From Pseudomonas fluorescens (GTDB lineage: Bacteria > Pseudomonadota > Gammaproteobacteria > Pseudomonadales > Pseudomonadaceae), in NCBI RefSeq assembly GCF_000730425.1, contig NZ_CP008896.1:1922001-1986000 (forward strand): a stretch of DNA of 64,000 bases. Direction: 5' to 3'. Within the stretch, counting starts at the first letter, position 1; the number at the start of each line of letters is the position of its first letter. The notes under the pieces are model-generated. The model made no database searches, had not been told where the DNA came from, and was given only the letters and a program-made list of their open reading frames with translations. Below, piece after piece: positions 7,112 through 34,234 of the stretch. A program made the translations under genes and the position numbers.

Positions 7112-7128
7112 TTGGCGCAAGACTTGCT
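7112..7128 (+). promoter_or_regulatory. Sigma-54 promoter upstream of nasA
   Basis: TTGGCGCAAGACTTGCT carries GG (7114-7115) and GC (7126-7127) with 10 nt between them. The predicted start near 7139 lies four bases before the first leader hairpin. Confidence 0.82.
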
Positions 7129-7138
7129 AACTGAACAT

Positions 7139-7224
7139 CACAGGTAGCCAACGGCGGTTGCCCCTCCACGACAAAGACGTCGCACATCCGGTTTGCCCAG
7201 GCAGACCCGATGGCGGCGTTTTTT
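7139..7224 (+). ncRNA. ANTAR-type (NasT) antitermination leader of nasA
   Basis: P1 is GGTAGCC (7143-7149), loop AACGGC, GGTTGCC (7156-7162), seven pairs. P2 is CGAC (7169-7172), loop AAAGAC, GTCG (7179-7182). Both loops keep A1 and G4. The terminator uses CGTCGC (7178-7183) pairing with GCGGCG (7213-7218), extended by further pairs inside the hairpin, then six T residues, so P2 and the terminator exclude each other. nasA starts 75 nt further on. Confidence 0.87.
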
Positions 7225-26084: not shown

Positions 26085-27509
26085 TTACAACTGAAACCTC
26101 CCCCCACCCTGCCCCAGCGCCGTGGCCAGCGCATCAAACCCCGCCCGCAATAACAGGTCATCCCCAGATGTATTGCAGATGCTCGCCCGGATAAACTGCG
26201 GCACCGCCGTCTGCCCTACGGCAAAGGCTTCTGCCGTGGCGATCAGGTAATTGTTTTGCTTGAGCTCAGCCTCGATTTCCGACGCCCGCCAAGGCTCCGG
26301 GACTTCAATCCAGAAGTGCGGGCTGTTGGGGTGCGTACGGTATTGCAGGCCGGCCAGCAGGTCTGCGACCAACGCCTTGCGCCGGCTGATTTCATTGATC
26401 TGCTGATGCAACAGGTACTCTGCCGTGCCGTTTTCAATCCACTGCGTGGCCAGTTCCAGGGTCACCGGCGTGGCCATCCAGCAAGTTGAGCGCAGGGCCG
26501 CAGAAATACGGCTGACCAGCGCCGGTGGCGCATGCACATACCCCACCCGCAAGCCCGCCGACACGGCCTTGCTCAGGCTGCTGATCAGAATCGTGCGCTC
26601 CGGGGCAAAATGGCTCAGGGGCGGCGGACGATCTTCCACCAGCACCCCGTGAGCCTCGTCTTCCAGAATCAGTAGGTTGTGCTCGCGGCACACCTTCACC
26701 AGCGCCTCGCGGCGGGCCACCGACAACACGGCAGTCGTCGGATTCTGGATGGTTGGCGTGCAATACAAGGCCGACACCCGGTGATTACGACAGACCTCCT
26801 CCAAGGCCGTCGGCACCACGCCTTCCTCATCCATCTCCAGGCCGATCAGACGGATGCCGAGCATCCGTGCGGCGGTGATCAGCCCTGGATAGGTCAACTG
26901 CTCGGTGACCACCGTGTCGCCCGCACGCACCAACGCCATCAACGCGCACAGCAACCCATGCTGGCCGCCATTGACACAGATGACCTGCTCGGGAATCGGA
27001 TGAAAGTCGCGTTGAACCAGCCATTGCGCGCCCGCCGCGCGGTAGCGGGGCAAGCCGGCATCCGGAGTATAGGCACTGATGTCCTGGAGAAACTTGGCGT
27101 TGGTCGACAGGGTTTGGAAGCTCTGGGCCAGGAAGGCCGTTTCCTGACCGGGGATATGCATATTGCGGCTCATATCGAAATATTGGCGCGGCTCCTCGCT
27201 GAAGTTGCGAAAGCCTTCGTCGCGCTGACGCTCCATCCCACGCTTGCGCACGAATGTACCGTCCCCTACCCGCGCCACTACCAATCCCAGGCGTTCCAGT
27301 TCACCGTAGGCACGACTGATGGTGCCAATGGTCACCCCCAGATTGTCGGAAAGTACCCGGTGAGGTGGCAGCTTGCGCCCCGGCTCGATCAAGCCTTCGA
27401 GAATGCCCCGCTCCATGACGTCGGACAGGCGCTTGTACTTCACGCCCTGCCCATTGGACAGGCCCTCCCGCATAATTGACACCATGTCAATATTTGTTTT
27501 GACAGCCAT
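26085..27509 (-). CDS. MocR-family transcription regulator (GntR HTH plus aminotransferase domain)
   Basis: Protein of 474 aa. Residues about 20-90 form a GntR winged helix (LPPHRVLSDNLGVTIGTISR, then AYGELERLGLVVARVGDGTF). The rest is a fold-type I aminotransferase domain with the PLP lysine in ILISSLSKAVSAGLRVGY, preceded by EDEAHG. MocR proteins sense PLP or an amino-acid adduct and control a divergent target operon. Here the divergent operon begins at 27613 with an exporter and sulfur genes. Direct repeats of GGGTTMAA lie between them. AGGG sits 7 nt before the ATG. Confidence 0.92.
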   Translation of the reverse strand: MAVKTNIDMVSIMREGLSNGQGVKYKRLSDVMERGILEGLIEPGRKLPPHRVLSDNLGVTIGTISRAYGELERLGLVVARVGDGTFVRKRGMERQRDEGFRNFSEEPRQYFDMSRNMHIPGQETAFLAQSFQTLSTNAKFLQDISAYTPDAGLPRYRAAGAQWLVQRDFHPIPEQVICVNGGQHGLLCALMALVRAGDTVVTEQLTYPGLITAARMLGIRLIGLEMDEEGVVPTALEEVCRNHRVSALYCTPTIQNPTTAVLSVARREALVKVCREHNLLILEDEAHGVLVEDRPPPLSHFAPERTILISSLSKAVSAGLRVGYVHAPPALVSRISAALRSTCWMATPVTLELATQWIENGTAEYLLHQQINEISRRKALVADLLAGLQYRTHPNSPHFWIEVPEPWRASEIEAELKQNNYLIATAEAFAVGQTAVPQFIRASICNTSGDDLLLRAGFDALATALGQGGGRFQL

Positions 27510-27612: not shown

Positions 27613-28563
27613 ATGCCAATGTCCGCCATTCTCGAAAATACCGAAAAAACCAAATCCCCCAAACAATGGTTGGCTGGCCTGATCACCAGTGTGATGTTCC
27701 TGATTGTCTGCCTGAGCTGGGGCACTACCTGGCTGGGGATCAAGATCGCAGTGGAAAGCGTGCCGCCACTGACGTCAGCGGGCCTGCGCTTTTTGATCGC
27801 CTTCCCACTGTTCCTGTGTTTTGCCTTCCTGCGTCGCGAGCCAATCCTGTTCCCCCGGGAAAGCCGTTGGTTCTTTGTGTTCGTGACCCTTTGCTATTTC
27901 AGCGTGCCCTACTACCTGCTCAACTACGGCGAGATGCACGTCTCGTCCGGGCTCACCGCCCTGCTGTTCAGTTGCATGCCCGTATTTATCCTGATCTTCT
28001 CCGCGCTGTTCCTGCGCGAGCGCATCTACTTTTCCCAGGTCGTCGGGATCGGCATCGGTTTCGGCAGCCTGTACATGATTATCCGCAGCCAGGGGCTGCA
28101 CCTTGACCATGCCGAGTTCTTCGGCGTACTGGCCATTCTGACCGCCGCGATCATGCATGCCTTGTGCTATGTCATTACCAAGCAAAAAGGCAGCGCCATC
28201 AGCGTGATCACCTACAACACCCTGCCCATCGGAATTGCCGGGTTGATGCTGTTCGTCGCCGGCCTCTGGTTTGAATCGCCGACCTTCGGCGCCATTACCC
28301 TGCGTTCCTGGAGCGCCCTGTTCTACCTGGGCCTGGTCGCCTCGGTCGGTGGTTTTATCGTGTATTTCATGCTGCTCAAGCGCCTGAGCCCGATCATCCT
28401 GTCGTTCGTCTTCATTATCTTCCCGGTGTTCGCCGTGATCATCGGCGCCTGGTACGAGGGCCTGGAACTGTCCCGGGACTTGATGCTGTATTCGGCGATC
28501 CTGCTGGCCGGCTTTGCCATCACCAAGCTGCCGATCGAAAAACTGCTGGCGAAAGCCAATTGA
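27613..28563 (+). CDS. DMT-family transporter (EamA, RhaT/YdcZ-like exporter)
   Basis: Inner membrane protein of 316 aa with ten predicted membrane segments in two EamA repeats (first half includes CLSWGTTWLGIKIAVESVPP, second half FYLGLVASVGGFIVYFMLL). Members such as YdeD/EamA and RhtA export cysteine, O-acetylserine or threonine. Its place at the head of a cysteine-synthase operon makes export of a cysteine-like product or O-acetylserine a reasonable guess. It is 23 bp before the four-domain sulfur gene, so cotranscription is very likely. Confidence 0.88.
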   Translation: MPMSAILENTEKTKSPKQWLAGLITSVMFLIVCLSWGTTWLGIKIAVESVPPLTSAGLRFLIAFPLFLCFAFLRREPILFPRESRWFFVFVTLCYFSVPYYLLNYGEMHVSSGLTALLFSCMPVFILIFSALFLRERIYFSQVVGIGIGFGSLYMIIRSQGLHLDHAEFFGVLAILTAAIMHALCYVITKQKGSAISVITYNTLPIGIAGLMLFVAGLWFESPTFGAITLRSWSALFYLGLVASVGGFIVYFMLLKRLSPIILSFVFIIFPVFAVIIGAWYEGLELSRDLMLYSAILLAGFAITKLPIEKLLAKAN

Positions 28564-28589: not shown

Positions 28590-30452
28590 ATGGACGTCCT
28601 CCGCCAAACCACCCTGGAACAGATCTACGCCCACGCCAGCAGCACCTACCCCGAAGAGTGCTGCGGCTTCGTCTTCGCAGACGCCAGCGTGTACCTGGGC
28701 AGCAATATCCAGAACGAGTTGCATCGCAAGAACCCCGAGGCCTACCCCCGCAGCGCGGCCAACGGCTACACCTTCTCGGTGACCGACACGCTGCTGATGA
28801 ACAAGGCCTTTGGCACGGATAACCCGGTAGTGGTGATCTACCACTCCCACCCGGATGTCGGTGCCTACTTCAGCGACGAGGATCAGGACAAGGCCCTCTA
28901 CATGGGCGAGCCGATCTACCCCGTCAGCTACCTGGTAGTGGATGTCCGCCAGGGCAAGGCCCTTGGGTCGAAGCTGTTTGCCTGGGATGGCACGCACTTC
29001 GCCCCCAACCCCTTCAACGACCTGCAAACGGAGTTGTACATGAACGCTGTCTCTTTCCCCGACATCCTGGTCCGCGTGGCCAAGTTGCCAGAATCGACCC
29101 TTGAGGGGGCCGGATCGACATTGCGCGAAGTCATTGAAGATACCTGCACCCGCTACCCCCAACTGCGGGCGCACCTGTTCCACGAAAACAACGGCCAGCT
29201 CAAGGAACACTTCCTGTTCACCGCAGGAGAAGAGCTGGTCGGCCCCGACGATCCACTCCCCGAAAAGGCAAAAATCGAAGTGCTGCTGGCCACCTCCGGC
29301 GGCATGGACATCGAGTCCTTGAGCAACGAAGAAGTACAACGGTATGTACGCCACATCACCCTGCCCGGTGTTGGTCGCGAAGGGCAACGGAACCTGAAGA
29401 AAGCCAAGGTGCTGATCATCGGTACCGGTGGCCTGGGCTCGCCCATCAGCCTGTACCTGGCCGCTGCGGGCATCGGCACCCTGGGGCTGGTGGACTTCGA
29501 TGTGGTGGAAAGCAGCAACCTGCAACGCCAGGTCGTGCACGGCAACAGCACCCTGGGCCTGCCCAAGGTCGAATCCGCCAGGCGCCGACTGCAGGACCTC
29601 AACGCCCATATCCGGATCAACACCTACGACACCGCGCTGAACGCCGATAATGCCCTGGAACTGGTCGGCGCCTACGACCTGGTGATCGATGGCACTGACA
29701 ACTTCGAGACCCGCTATCGGGTCAACGATGCCTGCGTACAGTTGGGCAAGCCGCTGGTGTACGGCGCAATCTACCGTTTCGACGGCCAGATCAGCGTGTT
29801 CAATTATCAAGGTGGGCCTTGCTACCGCTGCCTTTACCCCTACGCGCCACCTGCGGAACTGGCACCCAATTGCAGCGCCGGCGGAGTCATCGGCGTACTG
29901 CCCGGCGTGGTCGGGATGATCCAGGCCACCGAGGCAATCAAGCTGTTGATCGGCCTGGGCGAATCCCTGTCCGGCCGGTTGATGCGCTTTGATGCCCTGG
30001 CCATGAAATTCAGTGAGATCCGCTTCAAGCGCCGTGCTGACTGCCCGTGCTGCTCCGAATTGCGTGAAGCGCACCAACCCGCAGCATTCGTGTGCGCCGA
30101 TACTGTCCGCAGCACCCCAGGCCTGGCCGAAGAACACTACATAAAGCCCCAGGTGCTCAAGCGACTGCTGGAGCAGCGCAGCAGCACCGATATCCTGCTG
30201 GATGTACGCGATGCCAGCGAGCTGGAGGTATGCCAACTGCCCGGCGTGGTGCATATCCCCCTGGCTCAGCTCGACGATCATCTCGATACCCTCAGCCGCG
30301 ACAACACCCATTACCTGATCTGCTACGCCGGCATCCGCGCCGAGCAAGCCGCCAGCACCTTGCTGGCCGCAGGCTTTGCCAACACCCGGGTGCTGGTAGG
30401 CGGCATGAAACGCTGGGTGCACGACGTCGAACCCGACATGCCTTTGTACTGA
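28590..30452 (+). CDS. Four-domain sulfur carrier protein: JAMM protease, ubiquitin-like domain, E1-like MoeB/ThiF, rhodanese
   Basis: A single 620 aa polypeptide with four domains. (1) Residues 1-145, JAMM/MPN+ metalloprotease: Glu23 in PEECCG, H85-S-H87-P, then S95-x-x-D98, a complete zinc site. (2) Residues 151-238, a ThiS/MoaD-like ubiquitin fold ending in ATSGG (Gly237-Gly238), the place for adenylation and thiocarboxylate formation. (3) Residues 239-500, an E1-like adenylating domain with GTGGLGSP (278-285), the CxxC pairs 411/414 and 485/488 that bind zinc, and the catalytic cysteine 428 in PNCSAGG. (4) Residues 510-620, a rhodanese with active Cys578 in CYAGIR. Each part matches a piece of the mycobacterial Mec/CysO/MoeZ system. 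I chose ATG 28590 after GAGAGA. The Gly-Gly is internal, so either it acts without a free C-terminus or the JAMM domain cuts after it. Confidence 0.9.
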   Translation: MDVLRQTTLEQIYAHASSTYPEECCGFVFADASVYLGSNIQNELHRKNPEAYPRSAANGYTFSVTDTLLMNKAFGTDNPVVVIYHSHPDVGAYFSDEDQDKALYMGEPIYPVSYLVVDVRQGKALGSKLFAWDGTHFAPNPFNDLQTELYMNAVSFPDILVRVAKLPESTLEGAGSTLREVIEDTCTRYPQLRAHLFHENNGQLKEHFLFTAGEELVGPDDPLPEKAKIEVLLATSGGMDIESLSNEEVQRYVRHITLPGVGREGQRNLKKAKVLIIGTGGLGSPISLYLAAAGIGTLGLVDFDVVESSNLQRQVVHGNSTLGLPKVESARRRLQDLNAHIRINTYDTALNADNALELVGAYDLVIDGTDNFETRYRVNDACVQLGKPLVYGAIYRFDGQISVFNYQGGPCYRCLYPYAPPAELAPNCSAGGVIGVLPGVVGMIQATEAIKLLIGLGESLSGRLMRFDALAMKFSEIRFKRRADCPCCSELREAHQPAAFVCADTVRSTPGLAEEHYIKPQVLKRLLEQRSSTDILLDVRDASELEVCQLPGVVHIPLAQLDDHLDTLSRDNTHYLICYAGIRAEQAASTLLAAGFANTRVLVGGMKRWVHDVEPDMPLY

Positions 30453-30478: not shown

Positions 30479-31393
30479 ATGTTGCATAACTCTATACTCG
30501 ACGCCATTGGCCACACGCCCATCGTGCGCCTGGAACAATTCTCCGAAGACCTGGGCATCGAGGTCTTCGCCAAGCTTGAATCCCTGAACCCGGGCGGCAG
30601 CCATAAGGCGCGGATCGCGCTGGGCATGATCCTCGACGCCGAGCGTCGCGGTATCCTGATTCGCGATTCGGGGCAAACCATCATCGAGCCCAGTGGCGGC
30701 AATACGGGCATCGGCCTGGTCATGGCCGGCAACGTGCTGGGCTACAAAGTAGTGCTGGTGATTCCCGACAACTACAGCCCCGAAAAGCAAAAGCTGCTGC
30801 GACTGTATGGGGCCAAGGTGGTGCTCTCGGACAGCCGCCTGGGCAACAATTCCCATGGCGAGAAGTGCATGGAACTGCAGTTGGAAAATCCCAGCTTCGT
30901 CATGCTCAACCAACAACGCAATGGCGCCAACCCTCAGACCCATCGCGACACCACCGCCCCGGAAATCATCCGAGCCTTTGGCGAACGCCAGGTCGACTAT
31001 TTCGTCAGTGGCATCGGCACAGGGGGCCATATCACCGGTATCGGTGAAACCCTCAAGGCCACCTGGCCGCAAATCCGCGTGATGGGTGTGGAACCCGAGG
31101 AATGCGACCTGCTCAGCGACCGCCATGCGCCGCACCATATCCAGGGCCTGTCCATCGGCCTGATCCCGAGCATTCTCAACCTGAAAGTGCTGGACGGCAT
31201 GCTCAAGGTTTCGCGCCTTGAATGCCTGGAAATGATGAAGCGCATCATGCGTACCGATGCCATCAGCCTGGGGCTGTCCTCAGCCGCCAATATGGTGGCC
31301 ATCGCCAGGCTCGCCCCGGAACTGCCCACCGACACCGTCGTCCTGACCATGGTGTATGACAGCGCCGACAGTTATCTGCCCTGTTTCGAATAA
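30479..31393 (+). CDS. Cysteine synthase family PLP enzyme (CysM/CysK-like)
   Basis: Fold-type II PLP enzyme of 304 aa. Opens with SILDAIGHTPIVRLEQFS. The PLP lysine is Lys43 in NPGGSHKAR, where most family members have SVKDR. Other motifs are EPSGGNTGIGL (PLP/substrate loop) and the phosphate-binding GIGTGGHITG. It probably replaces an acyl or phosphate group on serine with sulfide or a protein thiocarboxylate. It follows the sulfur-carrier gene by 26 bp and precedes a serine-acetyltransferase-like gene. The altered SHKAR motif and PSGGNTG loop mark it as a divergent branch, so another beta-substituted alanine is possible. Confidence 0.88.
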   Translation: MLHNSILDAIGHTPIVRLEQFSEDLGIEVFAKLESLNPGGSHKARIALGMILDAERRGILIRDSGQTIIEPSGGNTGIGLVMAGNVLGYKVVLVIPDNYSPEKQKLLRLYGAKVVLSDSRLGNNSHGEKCMELQLENPSFVMLNQQRNGANPQTHRDTTAPEIIRAFGERQVDYFVSGIGTGGHITGIGETLKATWPQIRVMGVEPEECDLLSDRHAPHHIQGLSIGLIPSILNLKVLDGMLKVSRLECLEMMKRIMRTDAISLGLSSAANMVAIARLAPELPTDTVVLTMVYDSADSYLPCFE

Positions 31394-31416: not shown

Positions 31417-32409
31417 ATGGGAGGCTTTATCGACATGCAACAGTTGCACGATGAGTTGCTGACCCACCTCATCAAGGCCCTGTCGCCGGCGCAGATGGCA
31501 CAGTTGCAGCCACATCTGGCGGCGTTGATCCAGCCAGCGGCGCAGGAGGTGGCCGAGGACCTGATCGCCTATGCCTGGCGCGATCCGGCGTCCAGGGGCC
31601 GGGGCGAGTTGATCCTGGAGTCCTACGCCTCGTTCAAGGCCGTGCTGTTTTACCGGCTGGCGCACCGGGTATGGAATCTTCCCGACCAGCCCCACGGCCA
31701 GTCCTGCGCCATCGCGCTGACCTTGAGCAACCAGGGCAAGATCCTGTCCGGGGCCGAAATCCACCCGGCCGCCCAGATTGGCCGGCGTTTTGTCCTGGAT
31801 CATGGCTTTGGCACGGTGATCGGCGAAACCTGCGAAATCGGCAATGACTGCTACATCCTGTGTGGCGTGACCCTGGGCGCCCGGGGCATCGCCAACAACC
31901 CGGACGGCAAGCGCCACCCACGCCTGGGCAACAATGTGGAAGTCGGCTCGGGCGCCAGGGTGCTCGGGTATGTGCTGATTGGCGACAACGTATTTATCAG
32001 CCCCTCCTGTGTGATTACCCAGGACGTACCCGCGGGCACCAAGGTCAAGGTGGTCAACCAGATCCAGTTGCAGAAAAACGACGAATCAGACGCCAGCACC
32101 TACCTCGGGGCGTTTGCCCTCGACGAGCGCCTGCATGTGGTCGGCGAAGTCAACACCAGCCACCGGGTCACGGTGCTGGATGCTGACTTCCATCCGCTGC
32201 CCGGCCTGGTGCTGGAACCCACGGTCAAGGAACGCCATCACCTGCAATTTCGCCTGCGCACGCTGCAGGCACCCACCCATCCACCGCGCCTGCCCCTGAA
32301 CCTGAAGGTATGCGGGCCGAAGTTCGAGGTCACCCTGCTTTCCCCACCCGGGTTGAGCGCAATGGTGCGGCGTCTGCTGCAAACCAGCCCACTGATCGTT
32401 GGAGGTTGA
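31417..32409 (+). CDS. Serine O-acetyltransferase-like protein with a C-terminal extension
   Basis: Hexapeptide-repeat acyltransferase of 330 aa. The N-terminal helices and the central left-handed beta-helix match serine acetyltransferase: LDHGFGTVIGETCEIGNDCY contains the catalytic His and Asp region, and LGNNVEVGSGARVLG the later coils. It should make O-acetylserine for the enzyme upstream. CysE proteins usually end near residue 270; this one carries about 100 more residues (from about 225) with no recognised motif. ATG 31417 is preceded by GGGGGTG; an in-frame ATG at 31435 with GGGAGG ahead is equally possible. Confidence 0.85.
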   Translation: MGGFIDMQQLHDELLTHLIKALSPAQMAQLQPHLAALIQPAAQEVAEDLIAYAWRDPASRGRGELILESYASFKAVLFYRLAHRVWNLPDQPHGQSCAIALTLSNQGKILSGAEIHPAAQIGRRFVLDHGFGTVIGETCEIGNDCYILCGVTLGARGIANNPDGKRHPRLGNNVEVGSGARVLGYVLIGDNVFISPSCVITQDVPAGTKVKVVNQIQLQKNDESDASTYLGAFALDERLHVVGEVNTSHRVTVLDADFHPLPGLVLEPTVKERHHLQFRLRTLQAPTHPPRLPLNLKVCGPKFEVTLLSPPGLSAMVRRLLQTSPLIVGG

Positions 32410-32411
32410 AC

Positions 32412-33140
32412 ATGTCCGTGCACACAATGGAAACCCTGGCGCTGTTCGACAGCGCGCCTTACCAGAACGCCTTCAGCGCCCGTGTGATCGCCGTCAGTGA
32501 ACAGGGCGTCGCCCTGGAACACACGCTGTTCTATCCCACAGGGGGTGGGCAACCAGGAGACACCGGTTATTTCACGCTGCCGGACGGCAGCCAGGTCAAC
32601 GTGACCGGGACCGTGCGCGACCCAGTGCTGCGCTCGATCATCTGGCATCAAGTGGAACACAGCCCCGAATCATTGCGTGCTGGCGTGCAGGTCGACGCAG
32701 GCCTGGACTGGGAGCGGCGCTACCAGCACATGAAGATGCACACCTGCCTGCATCTGCTGTGCTCGATCATCGACGCACCGGTGACCGGTTGCAGCATCAG
32801 CGCCGACAAGGGCCGCCTGGATTTCGACCTGCCGGAAATGACCCTGGACAAAGAAAGCATCACCCGCGACCTGAATGCCTTGATCGAACAGGCCCATGAG
32901 GTCAAGTCGCTGTCGATGCCGGCGTCTGAGTATTCCACCCTGCTGCAGATCACCCGCACCCAAGCCGTCGCGCCACCGGTGATCCAGGGCGCGGTCCGGG
33001 TGATAGAGATTGCCGGCATCGATATCCAGCCGTGTGGCGGCACCCATGTGGTCAACACCGAGGAGATCGGTCGGGTGTTCTGCGAAAAAATCGAGAAAAA
33101 AAGCAAACACAACCGGCGGGTGATCCTGCGGTTCGAGTGA
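32412..33140 (+). CDS. Alanyl-tRNA editing protein (AlaX-like)
   Basis: Free-standing AlaRS-type editing domain of 242 aa. The four zinc ligands are visible: HTCLH (H-x3-H, in KMHTCLHLL) and CGGTH (C-x3-H, in QPCGGTHVVN). The N-terminal part has the GGGQPGDTG loop. AlaX proteins hydrolyse Ser-tRNA(Ala) or Gly-tRNA(Ala). It begins 2 bp after the preceding gene with GGAGG upstream, so it belongs to the same operon. A role in guarding translation against serine or a serine-like intermediate accumulated by this pathway is inference. Confidence 0.9.
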   Translation: MSVHTMETLALFDSAPYQNAFSARVIAVSEQGVALEHTLFYPTGGGQPGDTGYFTLPDGSQVNVTGTVRDPVLRSIIWHQVEHSPESLRAGVQVDAGLDWERRYQHMKMHTCLHLLCSIIDAPVTGCSISADKGRLDFDLPEMTLDKESITRDLNALIEQAHEVKSLSMPASEYSTLLQITRTQAVAPPVIQGAVRVIEIAGIDIQPCGGTHVVNTEEIGRVFCEKIEKKSKHNRRVILRFE

Positions 33141-33179: not shown

Positions 33180-34079
33180 TTACTTCGCCTGGGCTTTGAT
33201 CTGGGAGCTCAATTGCGCTATTTGCTGCTGCAGTTGGGCAATCGCTTGAGTGAATTCAGTCATCATTTGATCGATGCTCGCACGCAACTGCTCGTTCTCG
33301 TGTATGAGCTGGTCAACGCTGCGAGTCGCCGGAGCCGATGGGGTGTTGCCCTGGGTACTGGTCGCTTGCCCCGTCGGCGCGGTGTCCGACGGAACATTGC
33401 TATTGGCCTTCGGGTCCGAGGTGGCAGCAGGCGCCTGGTTCTCGGGGGCCGGCGCACTACCCACCTTCTGACTCAACGCCTGGATCTGCTCTTGCAGTTG
33501 GGTCACCACCCTCGTGAACTGGGTTTTCAGGCGCTCGATCGCATCGCGCAACTCATCGTTTTCAGCAGTCAATTGCCCAAGATTTCGCGGCGCTTCGCCT
33601 CCCGAAACCGTTGTATCTCCCACACGAACAGGTGTTTCAGGTGGGGTATTGTCCTGCTGCACCGCAGGGCTGTTACTCGCGCCCGGATTCGATGGGGACT
33701 CCGCTTTCCCCGGGCGTTGCATCGTATTGACTTGCTGAGCCAGGTCAGCCACTTGCCGTTGAAGCTCCATGATTATCGGCGTGAACTGAGCAACCAGCTG
33801 GTTAAGCTTGTCGCGCAGTTGATTGTTCTCCTGGGAAAGCTGTGCAAGCCGGGCCGGGTCAATATTTGTCGCAGATGACGGTGAATTGACCAGCCCCTTA
33901 TGTGCAGAAAACTGCCCGCGCTGTTGAGCAGTCATTGGCGGTCGGGGTGACGCTGAGTCTGACGGGACTTGCCTGGGACTGTGTGTTGGACCTCTGTTTT
34001 CGCTCCCCCCAGACACTGGCTTGGGGTGTGTTTCATAAACGTAATTGGGTGCGTACTGCTGAGGACTAACGCTAGTCAT
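33180..34079 (-). CDS. Orphan protein with three coiled-coil repeats in disordered linkers
   Basis: Protein of 299 aa that I cannot assign to a family. A disordered N-terminus (residues 1-75, rich in Pro, Ser, Gln) is followed by three similar coiled-coil units at about 78-120, 167-208 and 256-297. Each has an ENxQLRDxxxxLxxQFTxxxxxLQxQxxxLxxQ pattern. The units are separated by linkers rich in Pro, Ala, Thr, Ser and Asn. There is no signal peptide, no membrane segment and no cysteine seen. ATG 34079 follows AGAGGTCCTCC. It is monocistronic, between the sulfur operon and the prp operon. The layout is reminiscent of secreted or scaffold proteins, without proof. Confidence 0.75.
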   Translation of the reverse strand: MTSVSPQQYAPNYVYETHPKPVSGGSENRGPTHSPRQVPSDSASPRPPMTAQQRGQFSAHKGLVNSPSSATNIDPARLAQLSQENNQLRDKLNQLVAQFTPIIMELQRQVADLAQQVNTMQRPGKAESPSNPGASNSPAVQQDNTPPETPVRVGDTTVSGGEAPRNLGQLTAENDELRDAIERLKTQFTRVVTQLQEQIQALSQKVGSAPAPENQAPAATSDPKANSNVPSDTAPTGQATSTQGNTPSAPATRSVDQLIHENEQLRASIDQMMTEFTQAIAQLQQQIAQLSSQIKAQAK

Positions 34080-34234
34080 GGAGGACCTCTCAGATTCATG
34101 TATTGGACTCATGAGACGGCCCGCGTAAACAGGCCATCTGGCTACCTGATTGGTGGTTATCTGAATATGGTTCCTACGATGCAGGGCGTACTAATAGCAA
34201 ATGTGTCCACTTCACAAACGTTCGTCCGACGCTC

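Follow-up and report, generated by a model that had tools for sequence, protein, structure and literature searches.

Pseudomonas fluorescens is a soil bacterium, and a 64,000-nucleotide stretch of its genome (contig NZ_CP008896.1; hereafter the window) contains a gene whose single 620-residue product joins a JAMM metalloprotease, a ubiquitin-like carrier related to ThiS, MoaD and CysO, an E1 and a rhodanese. The carrier ends in a Gly-Gly that is internal to the chain, and the gene lies in a conserved operon with genes for a cysteine-synthase-like and a serine-acetyltransferase-like enzyme. On balance we favor the reading that the product is a self-processing sulfur-carrier polyprotein that serves a back-up or specialized pathway leading to cysteine or an amino acid that resembles it. 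Papers are cited by PubMed Central number, from excerpts of their text.

Domain organization and active sites

The gene translates on the plus strand without an internal stop and is organized as follows:

28590..30452, plus strand: JAMM / ubiquitin-like carrier / E1 / rhodanese gene, 620 residues (translation, Pfam, relatives)
28590..29036, plus strand: JAMM metalloprotease domain, residues 1-149 (Glu23, His85, His87, Ser95, Asp98)
29040..29303, plus strand: ubiquitin-like (ThiS/MoaD/CysO-type) carrier domain, residues 151-238 (profile match, Pfam, models, Foldseek)
29298..29303, plus strand: internal Gly237-Gly238, with predicted cleavage site after Gly238 (conservation, alignment to the chain ends of solved carriers)
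29304..30080, plus strand: MoeB/ThiF-type E1 domain (zinc pairs Cys411/414 and Cys485/488, Cys428)
30081..30452, plus strand: rhodanese domain (Cys578 within the loop CYAGIR; Pfam)

On the whole protein, Pfam places Prok-JAB (residues 8-119), ThiF (252-487) and Rhodanese (521-611) above their cut-offs. The protease domain has the JAB/MPN fold together with the Glu and HxHx7Sx2D zinc motif, whose residues are invariant in all 43 rows of the domain alignment; against the archaeal desampylase model NF041370 it scores 26.5 bits, below the cut-off of 130. The E1 domain contains the ThiF fold, both CxxC zinc pairs and the conserved Cys, and among NCBIfam models it falls below the cut-offs of the MoeB equivalog TIGR02355 (245.8 against 376.55), the MoeZ model PRK07878 (401.6 against 647) and PRK08762 (437.7 against 449). 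The rhodanese domain scores 52.2 bits against a Pfam cut-off of 22.2. Across 72 distinct fused genes, the JAMM zinc site, Gly237-Gly238, Cys411/414, Cys485/488, Cys428 and Cys578 are each invariant (72/72). The translated sequence thus confirms intact active-site residues in the JAMM, E1 and rhodanese domains and a retained Gly-Gly in the carrier, as had been proposed in a sequence-only reading of this DNA. Chance is excluded as an explanation for the four-domain architecture because the listed full-length relatives that share it are 84-95% identical.

A carrier with an internal Gly-Gly

The beta-grasp fold of residues 151-238 had been set in advance as a test of the sequence-only reading, and it passed. 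Although the whole 620-residue protein gives no ThiS match in Pfam at an E-value of 0.001, residues 151-238 on their own score 20.9 bits against ThiS (PF02597), slightly short of the 22.5 required. Of 13 aligned members of the carrier domain, 12 match this family at E-values up to 1. A profile of the domain matches solved structures, namely 4n6e_B (1.8e-9), Mycobacterium tuberculosis CysO (3dwg_C, 1.2e-6), MoaD (1vjk_A) and SAMP1 (3po0_A). Residues 151-238 are therefore assigned, by sequence, to a beta-grasp domain related to known carriers. The final position of the profile, at the Gly-Gly end, is the last residue of the chain in the solved carriers CysO, MoaD and SAMP1, while in 1v8c_A and 2l83_A the chain continues past it. 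ThiS, MoaD and CysO carriers are characterized by a free C-terminal Gly-Gly; in the chain encoded here the Gly-Gly is internal.

Conservation of the Gly-Gly in homologues, which the sequence-only reading had expected, is complete in the sets compared: it is kept in 72 of 72 distinct fused genes and in all 20 rows of three-domain split genes, some of which are identical to one another. In the query and its 120 best-listed relatives the junction reads ATSGG in 120 sequences and AASGG in one, so that Gly-Gly is present in 121 of 121. The residue that follows is of eight kinds (M 65, L 37, I 8, T 3, S 3, V 3, Q 1, A 1).

In a full-length AlphaFold model, carrier residues 151-230 have block means of 84-94, and the JAMM domain is poor (41-56) because few alignment rows cover it. 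A supplementary model of the JAMM and carrier domains gives a mostly good JAMM and a less certain carrier (block means 43-76); from this model Foldseek matches the carrier to SAMP1 (3po0). Fold comparison of the full-length model is dominated by E1 chains and says little about the other domains.

A retained internal start

Three features surround the boundary between the JAMM domain and the carrier:

29030..29042, plus strand: internal Shine-Dalgarno GGAG (29030-29033), 6-nucleotide spacer and the ATG of Met151 (29040-29042) (conservation, split relatives)
29013..29063, plus strand: very low synonymous variation in codons 142-158, around the internal ribosome-binding site and start (codon alignment)
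29109..29141, plus strand: second stretch of very low synonymous variation, codons 174-184, 45 nucleotides past the end of the first (codon alignment)

In split relatives the three-domain gene starts with a ribosome-binding site (for example AAAAGGAG) and an ATG, and the same elements lie in frame within the fused genes. GGAG, six nucleotides and the ATG at Met151 are kept in 91 of 91 sequences in which JAMM and carrier are fused, and L068, the closest split relative, shows GGAG-6-ATGAACGCT as well. In a codon alignment of the 72 distinct fused genes (gene mean 1.0, standard deviation 0.34), synonymous variation relative to expectation drops to 0.061 in codons 142-150 and 0.047 in codons 175-183, and the observed minimum was reached in none of 2000 permutations at scanning sizes of 9, 15 and 21. 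Around the internal start the variation amounts to roughly 5-10% of expectation. The lowest 9-codon ratio in a set of 63 sequences is 0.054 for the four-domain gene, compared with 0.29 for the EamA gene, 0.39 for the cysteine-synthase-like gene, 0.45 for the acetyltransferase-like gene and 0.35 for the AlaX-like gene.

Judged from these alignments, the gene illustrates clearly how a fusion can retain the start of its downstream partner under strong constraint. The former start probably still works, with the gene yielding chains of 620 and 470 residues. Retention of the constrained Met151 start suggests a JAMM-less form, and cleavage may well take place between molecules. Met239 as the start of a separate E1 was rejected because residue 239 is Ile in 18 of the 72 fused genes. 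RNA structure around Met151 was also considered and set aside, because sequences this alike cannot reveal covariation and their consensus fold is weak.

Origin and distribution of the fusion

A protein search scored 7999 candidates. Among the best 120, which were listed, four-domain proteins of about 619-620 residues come first, from Pseudomonas wherever NCBI names them, followed by JAMM-less proteins of 470-472 residues from genera that include Pseudomonas, Paraburkholderia and Bordetella. Scanning genomes gave 242 confirmed loci, and the best 80 were kept for comparison of neighborhoods; this set consequently leans toward close relatives. JAMM and carrier matches occur in 110 sequences, including the window, and lie in one frame in 91 and not in 19; L086-L091 and L118 were not entered in this set, and L122 and L123 have no JAMM or carrier match to those of the window. 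L070, counted among these 19, is a fused copy with a broken frame rather than a true split.

In a tree of 45 rows (25 sampled fused genes and 20 split), the fused genes form one clade with support of 100/99 that adjoins the split relative L068, which makes a single origin of the JAMM fusion, within one Pseudomonas clade, the most likely history. In the split relatives examined, the JAMM is encoded by its own neighboring gene, and a JAMM gene or domain directly precedes the carrier-E1-rhodanese unit at every one of the 80 loci and also in L119-L123. The wider unit is a carrier-E1-rhodanese chain with an internal Gly-Gly, which the JAMM most likely joined later in one clade.

The operon is patchy. 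Counting the genome of the window itself in each case, a carrier-junction profile matches 48 of 298 sampled genomes of the genus. Across the order it matches 13 of 341, two of them in the E1 only, and across the phylum 6 of 398, again all belonging to that genus. In another family of the order, L122:166-2907 and L123:1062-2910 encode a synthase, a JAMM and a carrier-E1-rhodanese fusion with an internal IAGG. For L122, the best solved match of the carrier is CysO (3dwg_C, 1.5e-11); its synthase scores best with the cysM model, at 256.6 bits below the cut-off of 394.2, and O-acetylserine sulfhydrylase B is its best match among solved structures. The carrier-E1 fusion with internal Gly-Gly and neighboring JAMM therefore also occurs in a CysO-type setting.

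A natural split at the Gly-Gly in genome G566 was ruled out, since a lesion at its junction removes the second Gly and disrupts the frame. Frame-broken copies of the fused or three-domain gene are also found in L064, L070 and L072, through decay or sequencing error.

Operon context

The gene is accompanied by a divergent regulator and four further operon genes, two of which encode a pyridoxal phosphate (PLP) enzyme and a transfer RNA (tRNA) deacylase:

26085..27509, minus strand: MocR-type regulator (GntR and aminotransferase), divergent (Pfam, NCBIfam; 80 of 80 loci)
27613..28563, plus strand: EamA-family exporter, the first gene of the operon (Pfam EamA, 1.3e-42; 80 of 80 loci)
30479..31393, plus strand: cysteine-synthase-like PLP enzyme (unusual NPGGSHK and PSGGNTG motifs)
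31417..32409, plus strand: serine-acetyltransferase-like enzyme (below the cut-off of the cysE model; 80 of 80 loci)
32412..33140, plus strand: AlaX-M-like aminoacyl-tRNA deacylase (AlaXM model, 2e1b match; 80 of 80 loci)

This context, absent from the sequence-only reading, bears most on function. Order and strands are identical in all 80 loci: MocR (divergent), EamA, JAMM, carrier, E1, rhodanese, cysteine-synthase-like, acetyltransferase-like and AlaX-like. The regulator is EhuR-like at 457 bits, below the NCBIfam cut-off of 480. Both NPGGSHK[A/V/T]RI and PSGGNTG are present in the PLP enzyme of 83 of 83 loci, where the two synthases aligned with it carry V in place of H, and T-S in place of S-G; the motifs may point to a different substrate, or to a sulfur donor bound to protein. 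O-acetylserine as an intermediate is suggested by the acetyltransferase-like gene, whose product has a C-terminal extension of about 110 residues that has no Pfam match. The AlaX-like protein (the piece lacking its first 14 residues) scores 44.7 bits against tRNA_SAD in Pfam, with a cut-off of 24, and the protein scores 204.2 bits against the AlaXM model, with a cut-off of 300; it matches the AlaX-M structure 2e1b at 2e-24. The conserved gene set looks made for producing and exporting cysteine or a cysteine-like amino acid, and the exporter and tRNA deacylase resemble, by analogy, self-protection near a toxic amino acid.

Beyond the operon, the minus strand of the window at 33180-34112 encodes a repetitive protein with segments similar by eye, whose tblastn matches have 27-64% identity and which is unmatched in many of the 80 loci. 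Rfam scores above gathering thresholds were obtained for an rmf RNA (1367-1502), a narK RNA (7114-7183) and the Pseudomonas small RNA P11 (10376-10516).

The counterpart in Pseudomonas aeruginosa, by gene order and names only, is PA2100-PA2106, in which the MocR regulator corresponds by position to PA2100/MdrR2. The named functions and their order are the same (MdrR2, EamA, JAB, MoeB, cysteine synthase, acetyltransferase and an AlaS-domain protein), but the JAMM and MoeB are listed there as separate genes. On RpoH induction, PA2101-PA2104 and PA2106 appear in the table of upregulated genes (PMC9866376), and N-acetylcysteine raises expression of PA2100-PA2103 (PMC9431628), a treatment that mainly evokes a zinc-starvation response. 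A cysK cysM double mutant remained without growth for as long as 18 h before recovering, for which the authors propose PA2104 and/or PA1061 (PMC12800425). These data are compatible with a normally low, cysteine-linked back-up or specialized route, the product of which they do not fix.

Proposed mechanism

If the carrier is used, a cut after Gly238 is needed because an internal Gly-Gly cannot be adenylated. We propose that both starts are read, giving the full 620-residue chain and a 470-residue carrier-E1-rhodanese chain from Met151, and that the JAMM domain cuts after Gly238, in cis or in trans. The cut would leave the E1-rhodanese as a protein of its own, and either the JAMM-carrier or the free carrier, whose C terminus would now be Gly-Gly. 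Gly238 would then be adenylated by the E1 and, with persulfide sulfur from rhodanese Cys578, the carrier would become a thiocarboxylate. The acetyltransferase would supply O-acetylserine, from which the PLP enzyme would form an aminoacrylate; addition of the thiocarboxylate, followed by an acyl shift, would give carrier-Gly-Gly-Cys. Hydrolysis of this adduct by the JAMM would free the product, such that a single protease would serve both maturation and release. The product would be exported by EamA, and mischarged tRNA would be cleared by the AlaX-like enzyme.

Several steps have precedents. A linear fusion of SAMP1 to MoaE is cut after Gly by the archaeal protease HvJAMM1, in vitro, as mass spectrometry showed, and in cells, and no cutting was observed once the Gly-Gly had been deleted (PMC4443979). 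MoaX is cut at an internal Gly-Gly, between Gly82 and Ser83, and its activity needs the cut (PMC4326299). Capped carriers typically require a protease such as QbsD, and a JAMM has been proposed for thioplatensimycin (PMC6006322); Iyer, Burroughs and Aravind (2006) suggested that fused carriers are perhaps freed by JAB domains (PMC1779556). The mycobacterial cysteine route consists of MoeZR, CysO, CysM and Mec (PMC3227635). After the cut, the E1 and rhodanese would form the thiocarboxylate in the manner of MoeZR with CysO, and the last steps would fall to the PLP enzyme and JAMM, in the roles of CysM and Mec. The sequence-only reading had the JAMM domain release the carrier after Gly-Gly, a step for which HvJAMM1 is a good analogy; one correction is that the problem of the internal Gly-Gly stems from the wider carrier-E1 fusion, the JAMM being separate in split relatives. 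Its picture of a self-processing machine holds in outline, except that a JAMM-less Met151 product is probably made as well and the cut may well be intermolecular.

A number of observations weigh against this reading. The mechanism proposed for this protein draws on analogy and sequence, and the protease that cuts MoaX was left unidentified in the excerpted account (PMC4326299). In both models the Gly-Gly tail has a predicted local distance difference test (pLDDT) score below 50 (nearly all of residues 235-257 in the full-length model, 234-245 in the JAMM-carrier model), and docking in the JAMM or E1 site is not seen in them; the low confidence fits a flexible linker. One genome (L118) has lost the second Gly, with the frame lost exactly at the junction. 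The lowest 9-codon window, codons 175-183, lies away from the internal start, which leaves part of the constraint pattern unexplained by the start site. As to the product, the PLP enzyme falls below the NCBIfam cut-offs for cysM (TIGR01138, 220 against 394.2) and cysK (TIGR01139, 292.4 against 350.95), and among solved structures it matches O-ureido-L-serine synthase best (2.4e-65), with a cysteine synthase only just behind (6.1e-65); together with the differing substrate loop, this means that the product may not be cysteine. The acetyltransferase-like protein scores 148 bits against the cysE cut-off of 210.65. Five further synthase-like and two further acetyltransferase-like matches occur in the genome, so normal cysteine supply need not depend on the operon. 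Finally, the P. aeruginosa cysK cysM double mutant is termed a cysteine auxotroph, on solid medium too (PMC12800425).

Literature searches, to which most subscription papers were out of reach, returned no paper on this four-domain fusion or its biochemistry. The full conjunction, in which a two-start gene uses one JAMM for both cuts, the internal start sets the ratio of protease-bearing to protease-free chains, and the operon makes and exports a toxic sulfur amino acid that requires its own tRNA deacylase, is put forward tentatively.

Alternative explanations

The product could instead be a sulfur-bearing beta-substituted alanine other than cysteine that is exported to act as an antimetabolite or signal, and EamA and the AlaX-like deacylase would then protect the producer. 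An exporter reportedly accompanies FthB, a fluorothreonyl-tRNA deacylase. FthB is the nearest published example that the AlaX-like and EamA pair recalls (PMC11295145), and the motif signature peculiar to the PLP enzyme (83 of 83 loci), its match to O-ureido-L-serine synthase and the patchy occurrence of the operon (48 of 298 genomes of the genus) point the same way. However, an AlaX-M and an EamA protein also suit an overload of serine, O-acetylserine or cysteine (PMC11295145; PMC11005379), a tailoring enzyme was not seen by Pfam among the six operon proteins, and the rise of PA2100-PA2103 with N-acetylcysteine (PMC9431628) fits a link to thiols or cysteine, though the response to this treatment is mainly one of zinc starvation. 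We regard this alternative as doubtful but worth keeping in view. Somewhat less credible is an RNA element or RNA-binding site as the source of the constraint at Met151, with the 620-residue chain as sole product. It would accommodate the second constrained stretch, 45 nucleotides after the first, which the start site does not account for; GGAG also falls in a weak hairpin of the consensus fold, but this is no evidence of structure because the sequences hardly vary. The constrained bases are the ribosome-binding site and start codon of a separate gene in split relatives, with the same arrangement in L068, and this argues for a start.

It is unlikely, and a little more so, that the fused ubiquitin-like domain stays uncut as a docking or regulatory part of the E1 while another carrier, MoaD or ThiS, is the true sulfur acceptor. 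Some ThiF proteins with an N-terminal ubiquitin-like domain do coexist with stand-alone ThiS, from which the authors infer another role (PMC1779556), and the genome has two clear other ThiS-family loci. Set against this, the Gly-Gly is conserved though the next residue varies, the JAMM is a constant neighbor, and none of the six operon proteins in the window matches ThiS (Pfam, E-value 0.001), such that a second carrier is not seen in the operon. A ubiquitin-like protein-conjugation system in place of sulfur transfer is very improbable: SAMP-type conjugation is likewise built from a JAMM, a carrier and an E1 (PMC4443979), but the rhodanese domain and the sulfur-amino-acid genes favor sulfur transfer, and an E2-like match is found by Pfam in none of the six operon proteins.

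Relation to known systems

The self-processing polyprotein that we favor would be a bacterial counterpart of polyubiquitin and ubiquitin-fusion processing, in which a carrier is locked behind its own E1 until the JAMM cut, and it bears on how JAMM proteases gained deubiquitinase roles. The operon, conserved and little studied in Pseudomonas, may account for residual cysteine synthesis without CysK and CysM, or for an unknown sulfur amino acid. Its class has been known since 2006; new here is a variant of CysO/Mec-type sulfur-carrier systems.

Operon type 4c of Iyer, Burroughs and Aravind (2006), which includes P. aeruginosa, combines ThiS/MoaD, E1-rhodanese, JAB and cysteine synthase (PMC1779556), and the same combination occurs here and at all 80 loci compared; the four-domain fusion, the internal start and the AlaX/EamA/MocR context were not found in the excerpts of that account. 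The QbsCDE and PdtFGH systems for Pseudomonas thiocarboxylate siderophores share a JAMM that exposes the carrier Gly-Gly (QbsD) and a clustered E1-rhodanese and carrier, but they consist of separate proteins and deliver sulfur to an aromatic acid, and no siderophore genes occur among the operon proteins here. MoaX (MoaD-MoaE) and SAMP1-MoaE are likewise fusions with an internal Gly-Gly that are cut there; in these the partner is MoaE instead of an E1, the protease is outside the chain, and the SAMP1-MoaE tested was engineered. The mycobacterial CysO-CysM-Mec-MoeZ pathway (PMC3227635) shares a CysO-homologous carrier, an E1-rhodanese, a JAMM and a cysteine-synthase-like enzyme. It differs in that here the carrier is fused to the E1 with an internal Gly-Gly and the JAMM is fused too, the PLP enzyme scores too low for the cysM model, the operon includes an exporter and a tRNA deacylase, and the acetyltransferase gene suggests O-acetylserine where M. 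tuberculosis CysM uses O-phosphoserine.

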